A stretch of DNA of 64,000 bases from Oscillospiraceae bacterium. Its GTDB lineage: Bacteria > Bacillota > Clostridia > Oscillospirales > CAG-272. The position numbers were made by a program, and so were the translations under genes. Position 1 is the first letter of the stretch. Each line of letters opens with the position of its first letter. The DNA lies in contig SVSB01000004.1 in assembly GCA_015064505.1 (NCBI GenBank), forward strand, positions 1 through 64,000. Reading direction: 5' to 3'. This document shows, piece after piece, positions 161 through 1,696 of the stretch. The notes beneath the pieces were generated by a model. It was given only the letters and a program-made list of their open reading frames with translations, made no database searches and was not told the DNA's origin.

Positions 161-1456
161 TTATTCGTTTTCGCTATCCTCGTCCGCGGGCTTTTTCACC
201 GTAACGGTGGCCTGCTCTATGCGATGCTCCTTGATGCCCGTTACCTTTATGTACATTTGCTCGGTTTCAAGCTCAAAGGTTGTATCGTCGTCGGGGATCG
301 ATCCGTAAATGCCGAGAACGAAGCCGCCGAAGGTATCGGATTCGCATTCCTCAAGGGTGATGCCGATAGCCTCCTCAAGCTCGGAAACGGCAACGGTTCC
401 GTTTATCTGCCAGGTATTTTCCTCAAGCTGAACGATGGGAGCGATCTCCTCGCCCTCCTCGTCATCCTCGGAAAAGTCGCCAACGAGGCATTGCACCAGA
501 TCGGTGAAGGTAATAACGCCGAAGAGTCCGCCGTACTCGTCAAGCACGATCGCCATGGATTCCTTGTTCTTCTTCATATTGCGGAACAGCACGTCTGCCT
601 TAACGCTTTCGGGCACGTAGTAAGCGGGGCGCAGAGCGTTTTCAAGAAGGCTCTCGCGGCTCTTATCCTCAAGGCGGAAATACTCTCTGGTATCAAGCAC
701 GCCGATAATATCGTCCACGTCCTCGCCGTATACGGGTATACGGGAGAAGCGGTTATGCTGAATGATCTCCTCCCATTCTTCGTCCGTTCCGTCCTTTGCA
801 AGGGTGGTAAGCTCGGTGCGGTGGGTGGCGATCTCGGCGGCGGTCAGATCGTCAAAATCAAATATGTTCTCAATAAGCTCCTTGTTGTATTCGTCGATGC
901 TTCCGTCCTCGTGTGCTTCGTCAACAAGGGTAAGTACCTCTCCCTCCGTAACGGTATCCACCTCGCCCGGCTTGAAGATAAGGTTAAGAAGCTTTCTCCA
1001 GAGCACGAAAATAAGGTTTACGGGGGTAAGAATAATGCCGATGAGGTTAAGAATGGGCGCAACGGTCATGGCGAAATACTCGGGTCTTCTCTTTGCCAGA
1101 CTCTTTGGTGATATCTCTCCGAAGAGAAGAACTACCACAGTGACGACAACGGTGGAGACTGCGGATGCGGCGCCTGCCCGGGACGTGCCTGCAAGCAGAT
1201 CCACGAAGAGAAGAGTTGCCATGGAGGAAAGCAGAATGTTTACGATGTTGTTACCCACGAGTATGGTGGAAAGCAGCTTGTCGTAATCCTCGGACATTTT
1301 AATAACGCGGGCGGCGCGTCTGCTTCCTTCAGCCGCAAGGTTTTTCAGTTTGGTCTGGTTTGCGGAGGTGAAGGCCGTCTCCGTTGCGGAAAAGAACGCA
1401 GAGAAGACAAGGCAAATGAGCATAACGATGATCTTGGTACTACTACCGTCGGGCAT
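161..1456 (-). CDS. HlyC/CorC (CNNM) family CBS-domain membrane protein
   Basis: 431 residues. The N-terminal half is a DUF21/CNNM transmembrane module with several hydrophobic segments and the motif SATETAFTSAN near residue 20. Two CBS repeats follow (around ATHRTELTTL and YYVPESVKADVL). A C-terminal CorC_HlyC domain follows and includes the DEYGGLFGVIT and ESDTFGGFVLG motifs. The family is linked to divalent cation (Mg or Co) efflux or homeostasis. The start at 1456 was chosen over the longer track ORF because AAGGAGAA lies seven bases upstream; the longer ORF would run through a terminator and a leader ORF. Expression is probably controlled by that upstream attenuator. Family assignment is firm; the ion is not. 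Confidence 0.9.
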   Translation of the reverse strand: MPDGSSTKIIVMLICLVFSAFFSATETAFTSANQTKLKNLAAEGSRRAARVIKMSEDYDKLLSTILVGNNIVNILLSSMATLLFVDLLAGTSRAGAASAVSTVVVTVVVLLFGEISPKSLAKRRPEYFAMTVAPILNLIGIILTPVNLIFVLWRKLLNLIFKPGEVDTVTEGEVLTLVDEAHEDGSIDEYNKELIENIFDFDDLTAAEIATHRTELTTLAKDGTDEEWEEIIQHNRFSRIPVYGEDVDDIIGVLDTREYFRLEDKSRESLLENALRPAYYVPESVKADVLFRNMKKNKESMAIVLDEYGGLFGVITFTDLVQCLVGDFSEDDEEGEEIAPIVQLEENTWQINGTVAVSELEEAIGITLEECESDTFGGFVLGIYGSIPDDDTTFELETEQMYIKVTGIKEHRIEQATVTVKKPADEDSENE

Positions 1457-1518
1457 GATTTTCTCCTTGGTCAAAACGGTTGAATTAACGCAGATAAACG
1501 GTAAAGGCTCCGTAACGC

Positions 1519-1558
1519 AAAAAAGCACAGCCCGAAGCATTCCTCGGGTTATGTGCTT
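1519..1558 (-). terminator. Attenuator-type terminator in the 5' leader of the CorC-like gene
   Basis: On the minus strand AGCACA and CCCGA pair with TCGGG and TGTGCT, followed by a run of six T. It sits between promoter and start codon, so transcription must pass it to reach the gene. Its 5' arm starts about ten bases after the stop of the leader ORF, close enough for a ribosome at that stop to block folding. Confidence 0.7.
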
Positions 1559-1566
1559 AATAAATA

Positions 1567-1608
1567 TCAATATTCGGTGCGCGTACTTCGACTGTTACCG
1601 TCGTCCAC
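1567..1608 (-). CDS. 13-codon leader peptide ORF upstream of the CorC-like gene
   Basis: A GTG start with a good AAGGAGA ribosome site eight to nine bases upstream opens an ORF reading MDDGNSRSTRTEY and ending in TGA. It is too short for the ORF track. Its position between a sigma-A-type promoter and an intrinsic terminator is that of a regulatory leader peptide. I infer that ribosome stalling or occupancy at its end decides whether the terminator forms, perhaps sensing a divalent cation. No known leader family was recognised with certainty. Confidence 0.6.
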   Translation of the reverse strand: MDDGNSRSTRTEY

Positions 1609-1668
1609 TTTTCGTGTTCTCCTTAAAAATTCAGGACTTGCCTGCGTGATCGTTTTCGACCGACGAAT

Positions 1669-1696
1669 ATGATACCATAAATTTTCGGTTTGTCAA
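1669..1696 (-). promoter_or_regulatory. Sigma-A-type promoter for leader plus CorC-like gene
   Basis: Minus strand TTGACA, a 16-base spacer and TATCAT. It would start transcription about 55 bases before the leader peptide start, giving a leader of about 200 bases before the CBS gene. Confidence 0.7.

Follow-up and report, generated by a model that had tools for sequence, protein, structure and literature searches.

A candidate leader-peptide attenuator with an acidic leader upstream of CNNM and other cation exporter-type genes in Clostridia

Acidic N-terminal codons destabilise the ribosomes of E. coli and Salmonella when Mg2+ is low, and they control both mgtA and mgtB (PMC11282234, PMC8092293). 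MgtL, the short leader of the Mg2+ transporter gene mgtA, carries the acidic residues E2 and D4, and termination depends on translation of the full leader (PMC11282234). In MgtQ of Salmonella mgtCBRU, the Asp2 and Glu5 codons destabilise ribosomes and control a Mg2+ transporter gene (PMC8092293). High Mg2+ induces CorC and MgpA in Salmonella, for which intrinsic ribosome destabilisation (IRD) and the YoaL leader have been put forward as the mechanism (PMC12421838). CorB/C proteins are Mg2+ efflux proteins (PMC9276622). Leader peptides are also present in Firmicutes, where histidine leader attenuators have been described (PMC2965389).

The locus reported here lies in a 64,000-nucleotide stretch of an Oscillospiraceae genome assembly (GCA_015064505.1, contig SVSB01000004.1), referred to below as the window. 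A preliminary description of this DNA had proposed a sigma-A-type promoter, a 13-codon leader ORF and an intrinsic terminator in front of a CBS domain gene, and had likened the arrangement to the Mg leader switches of enterobacteria. No earlier description of the leader was found in the literature searched, where most subscription papers are absent.

The locus and its close orthologues

All of these parts were present in the window in the place proposed for them, on the minus strand. The promoter (TTGACA-16-TATCAT, 1669..1696) had 11/12 matches, with TTGACA at 1696-1691, TATCAT at 1674-1669, a 16-nt spacer and a TG preceding the second hexamer. The leader ORF, VDDGNSRSTRTEY, comprised 13 codons (1567..1608) and was preceded by the Shine-Dalgarno sequence AAGGAG (1619..1624); a GGAG-type site was also present in the orthologues. 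Its start codon, at 1608, was GTG and not ATG, with fMet still the first residue, and its stop codon was TGA. Acidic residues were restricted to D2, D3 and E12, and there was no EPDP-like motif. The rare codon pair CGA-AGT (1585..1590) stood immediately 3' of the acidic stretch. The 5' arm of the intrinsic terminator hairpin (1523..1558, -19.6 kcal/mol) began 8 nt past the leader stop codon. The hairpin was followed by T6 and GCG, such that the terminator end, GCTTTTTTGCG (1516..1526), comprised a U-tract with an elemental-pause-like G-N6-TGYG.

The downstream gene (161..1456, minus strand) had its own AAGGAG Shine-Dalgarno sequence (1463..1468) and an ATG at 1456, and encoded 431 aa with CNNM, CBS and CorC_HlyC domains (Pfam PF01595, PF00571, PF03471). 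By Pfam the product belongs to the CNNM family of Mg2+ exporters; transport is predicted. The CNNM frame was open 5' of its ATG, through the terminator and as far as the leader (1454-1591, minus strand, with a TTG at 1570); automatic gene calling may consequently place the start too early (469 aa). A divergent 3-hydroxyacyl-CoA dehydrogenase gene was located at 1866-2798 on the plus strand (Pfam 3HCDH_N and 3HCDH).

Single promoter and terminator matches in the window occurred at close to the shuffle expectation, and the case for the element is therefore comparative. The core pattern, at up to 3 mismatches, was present only once in the genome, and no such leader was seen at the other CNNM paralogues of the source genome. 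When the window was searched against Rfam, no match reached the gathering threshold and nothing relevant was returned at E values up to 5.

Close orthologues (57-82% identity) were collected from species and family genome scans, giving 20 sequences, or 21 with the window. The named records were Clostridia/Oscillospiraceae MAGs, mostly from ruminant gut. Promoter, GTG-started leader, and hairpin with T-run preceded the gene in all 21, and the TTGACA/TATAAT-like boxes occupied the equivalent relative position in each; the proposed attenuator layout was thus strongly supported. The consensus leader peptide was VDNGDSDGNCRSTY, followed by a variable tail. The distance from the leader start to CGAAGT was 18, 21, 24, 27 or 30 nt, a multiple of 3 in 19/19 cases. 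CRST was lost in two orthologues (L028, L029). Beyond TTTTTTGCGTT the UTR was not conserved among the close orthologues.

Spread across taxa and downstream genes

A DNA search with the whole leader across the family yielded hardly more than a single relative (69% identity), and covariance models were therefore used. R1 was built from 21 sequences and R2 from 57. At E <= 0.01, R1 matched in 56/295 family genomes and 45/394 order genomes; R2 matched in 15/391 class genomes and 4/399 phylum genomes. Since the models contain no gene information, the association of the leader with CNNM genes constitutes an independent test. Beyond the closest set, 38 R1 matches were scanned for downstream genes. 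A gene with CNNM, CBS and CorC_HlyC domains followed in 23, a P-type ATPase with Cation_ATPase_N in 8 (best NCBIfam of the PMR1/SERCA type) and an AI-2E transporter in 2. One further locus, L140, had a gene fragment after an ATPase-type leader. Four R1 matches (L144-L147) were judged to be due to chance, having unrelated genes, no acidic leader led by a Shine-Dalgarno (SD) sequence and E values of 9e-5 to 3e-4. With R2, a CNNM gene was downstream in 14/14 new class and phylum loci that had a gene in reach.

The leaders preceding the PMR1/SERCA-like ATPase genes in L119, L127, L128, L131, L132, L137, L141 and L149, from several families, were near-identical (MDDADSSDADRSN) and were likewise followed by a terminator. 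A leader was also located 5' of an AI-2E-family transporter gene in L112/L034 (one contig) and in L113; in L034/L112 a CNNM gene follows the AI-2E gene in the same direction.

CNNM loci were also collected by protein homology alone (L032-L054; 23 loci at 38-46% identity), with leaders assigned partly by eye. In 15/23 an Asp-rich leader ORF was preceded by a ribosome site, and nearly all of these leaders were followed by a hairpin and T-run. L034 sits behind the AI-2E gene that bears the leader (L112), and L043 had no leader within 330 nt. By automatic count, 83% of these upstream regions contained an SD-led ORF with two or more acidic residues among its first 10 codons, versus 18% of dinucleotide shuffles and 29% of regions upstream of other window genes. 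The remaining 6/23 loci (L035, L036, L042, L046, L047, L052) carried, upstream of CNNM, a leader with an acidic/proline N-terminus and no clear intrinsic terminator. In L035, L036, L046 and L047 this second leader type had an Arg/Lys-containing tail closed by RC (L035: MEEPPLCN...RKPPARRPFRC). It is reminiscent of MgtL.

R2 gave no match on 23 other CNNM loci (L072-L094). Given these loci and the source-genome paralogues that lack the element, it is not universal to CNNM genes. On these sequence comparisons the layout is not a product of chance, and it occurs across families, order, class and phylum. Conservation in relatives had been set beforehand as a check on the preliminary description; ORF and terminator were kept far beyond the genus.

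Leader codons and hairpin geometry

Acidic residues were concentrated at the start of the leader, accounting for 179/540 residues (33.1%) in codons 2-10 versus 28/464 (6.0%) in codons 13-21. D or E occupied position 2 in 88% of leaders and position 5 in 52%. The leader stretch was acidic/Gly/Ser/Asn and held no run of codons for a pathway amino acid. Arg was encoded by CGA in 40/47 leader codons versus 19/392 in CNNM genes, and Ser by AGT in 78/121 versus 70/891 (p about 6e-35 and 7e-44, respectively, with relatives counted as independent). In the window genes the corresponding counts were 33/782 for CGA and 55/1041 for AGT. The protein-found subset kept the bias (CGA 10/12, AGT 19/34). Asn, Gly and Thr codons in the leaders were used as in genes. 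Among the 30 of 33 tRNA matches scanned, in a genome that is 89% complete, Arg tRNA genes with anticodons ACG, CCG, TCT and CCT were found and, provisionally, none with TCG; decoding of CGA would then depend on inosine wobble.

No stop interrupted the leader frame between codon 6 and a point 12 nt short of the hairpin in 45/47 non-redundant leaders; the two alternative frames were open over this interval in 21/47 and 9/47. Most stop codons of the leaders fell between -13 and +24 nt relative to the hairpin arm. The stop position is not fixed, since the ORF ran through the entire terminator in L066 and in several class-level leaders. In L151, L152, L155, L158 and L159 the leader ORF spanned the whole terminator and stopped 3' of the T-run, the hairpin arms coding for an AYLR...RRRAFLC-like tail. 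The CGA codon lay 19-54 nt upstream of the hairpin arm, and consequently a ribosome occupying the acidic stretch or CGA would mostly leave the arm free, while a ribosome at the leader end would overlap it.

The terminator helix was conserved, with 97% of cells paired and with covariation. G-N6-TGYG, which is the consensus of elemental pauses, ended 36/47 leader terminators versus 12/204 controls, although the controls were crude and the leaders are related. When leaders were cut before the 3' arm and folded with alifold, no conserved antiterminator was obtained beyond a 4-bp core hairpin, and half of the arm was paired in only 7/21 single folds. The ribosome itself is therefore the likely antiterminator.

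Proposed gating by the ribosome, and alternatives

A leader-peptide transcription attenuator is well supported by the comparative evidence above. The reading that we favour, with some confidence, is that it controls a cation exporter gene, that it is gated by the ribosome completing the acidic leader, and that the signal is Mg2+, with the gene ON in high and OFF in low Mg2+. A ribosome reaching the leader end would cover the 5' arm of the hairpin, the terminator would not form and the exporter would be transcribed. If instead the ribosome were still at the acidic stretch or CGA, or had dropped off there, the arm would remain free and transcription would end. In low Mg2+ the acidic nascent chain would destabilise the 70S ribosome, that is, by intrinsic ribosome destabilisation, and the slow CGA and AGT codons may prolong the vulnerable moment. 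With sufficient Mg2+, ribosomes would finish the leader and the exporter would be ON; in low Mg2+ it would be OFF. An exporter that is on only in a Mg2+-replete ribosome state would be the expected logic. In the preliminary description, terminator formation was prevented by a ribosome paused at the end of the leader. The geometry fits such a block; the informative part of the leader is the acidic N-terminus with the rare CGA and AGT codons, and not an end-of-leader pause.

Mg2+ is the presumed signal because the downstream genes are nearly all of cation exporter types and because the acidic residues are placed as in MgtL and MgtQ; the metal sensing raised in the preliminary description is retained to that extent. 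Against it, the window leader has few acidic residues, and two acidic residues alone are often insufficient (PMC11282234).

The comparison with MgtL holds in the placement of acidic residues, at positions 2-5 before a Mg2+ transporter-type gene. MgtL differs in using a Rho-dependent terminator upstream of an importer, such that ribosome drop-off turns the gene ON, whereas the clostridial leaders precede an intrinsic terminator and exporter-type genes, and drop-off is predicted to turn them OFF. The suggested likeness to the enterobacterial switches thus extends to residue placement, while the output is likely the reverse. The clostridial leaders lack the EPDP motif and have the rare CGA and AGT codons instead; no sequence homology is claimed. 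D2 and E5 of MgtQ match the clostridial acidic positions 2 and 5, but MgtQ acts on translation, by way of an intra-operon hairpin that sequesters the RBS, and the clostridial element uses a terminator. The proposed logic, on at high Mg2+, is the same as that for YoaL/MgpA and for the N-terminal IRD of CorC (YbeX), the Mg2+-protective CorC-domain proteins of Salmonella and E. coli (PMC12421838). In these Gram-negatives control is translational or in-gene, and the YoaL mechanism is not established, whereas transcription attenuation is proposed here. Attenuators of the trpL/hisL type and the Firmicutes histidine attenuators share the succession of leader ORF and intrinsic terminator; the clostridial leaders are without a pathway-codon run and without a conserved antiterminator. 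The element probably works like a leader-peptide attenuator and like MgtL, yet lacks defining features of classical attenuators and of MgtL.

The same translation-coupled attenuator could respond to a signal other than Mg2+, namely the general translation state, as set by initiation rate, by an ABC-F factor that targets acidic chains, or by inhibitors that slow the ribosome at CGA. The geometry and coding evidence are neutral as to the signal, the CGA/AGT bias points to elongation speed, and the acidic residues on which EttA acts lie in the first 30 aa (PMC11282234). A general translation signal does not, however, predict almost exclusively divalent-cation exporter types downstream, and it is considered unlikely.

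It is improbable that the response has the opposite sign, with readthrough caused by stalling of the ribosome at CGA or within the acidic stretch. Stalling or drop-off does mean ON in classical attenuators and in MgtL, but this would call on an upstream RNA segment that pairs alternatively with the 5' arm of the hairpin, of which no conserved instance was found, or on a ribosome close enough to block the arm, and at 19-54 nt a ribosome on CGA is mostly too distant.

It is regarded as very improbable that the element acts at the RNA level, with a protein or metal bound by the conserved CGAC-loop-GTCG hairpin or by GTCGAAGTAC and with an ORF that is there by coincidence. Most sequences could accommodate helix 1 (83% of cells paired), although the alignment had been fitted to it, and nucleotide conservation of GTCGAAGTAC was high in close orthologues. 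Set against this are the signs of selection on the peptide: in-frame indels, frame-specific avoidance of stops, and acidic residues kept through differing codons (GAC/GAT) in distant leaders. No Rfam family matched. M-box and yybP-ykoY riboswitches likewise exert cis control of metal transporter genes through termination, but neither these nor NiCo gave an Rfam match in the window, and what is conserved in Clostridia is an ORF and not an aptamer fold; a riboswitch was rejected for lack of an Rfam match and for selection at the peptide level. Attenuation through charged tRNA-Asp or tRNA-Arg, suggested by the recurrence of Asp and one Arg codon, was rejected as barely credible, the downstream genes being for cation transporters and not amino acids and an antiterminator being lacking.

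Whether the Mg2+-gated reading extends to a widespread clostridial class, in which the ribosome serves as the Mg2+ sensor through an acidic leader and programmed slow codons (CGA, AGT), inversely to MgtL and in common for CNNM exporters and P-type cation ATPases, is evenly balanced in our judgement. If so, intrinsic ribosome destabilisation by acidic chains would be a general bacterial readout of Mg2+ and not an enterobacterial curiosity, and the leaders would form a natural sequence collection from which to learn what patterns of acidic residues and rare codons destabilise ribosomes. It would also give a form of regulation for CNNM exporters, for which none was found described, and a predicted function for hundreds of unannotated leader ORFs. 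Clostridia would then use an intrinsic terminator and an inverted output, with exporters on at sufficient Mg2+.
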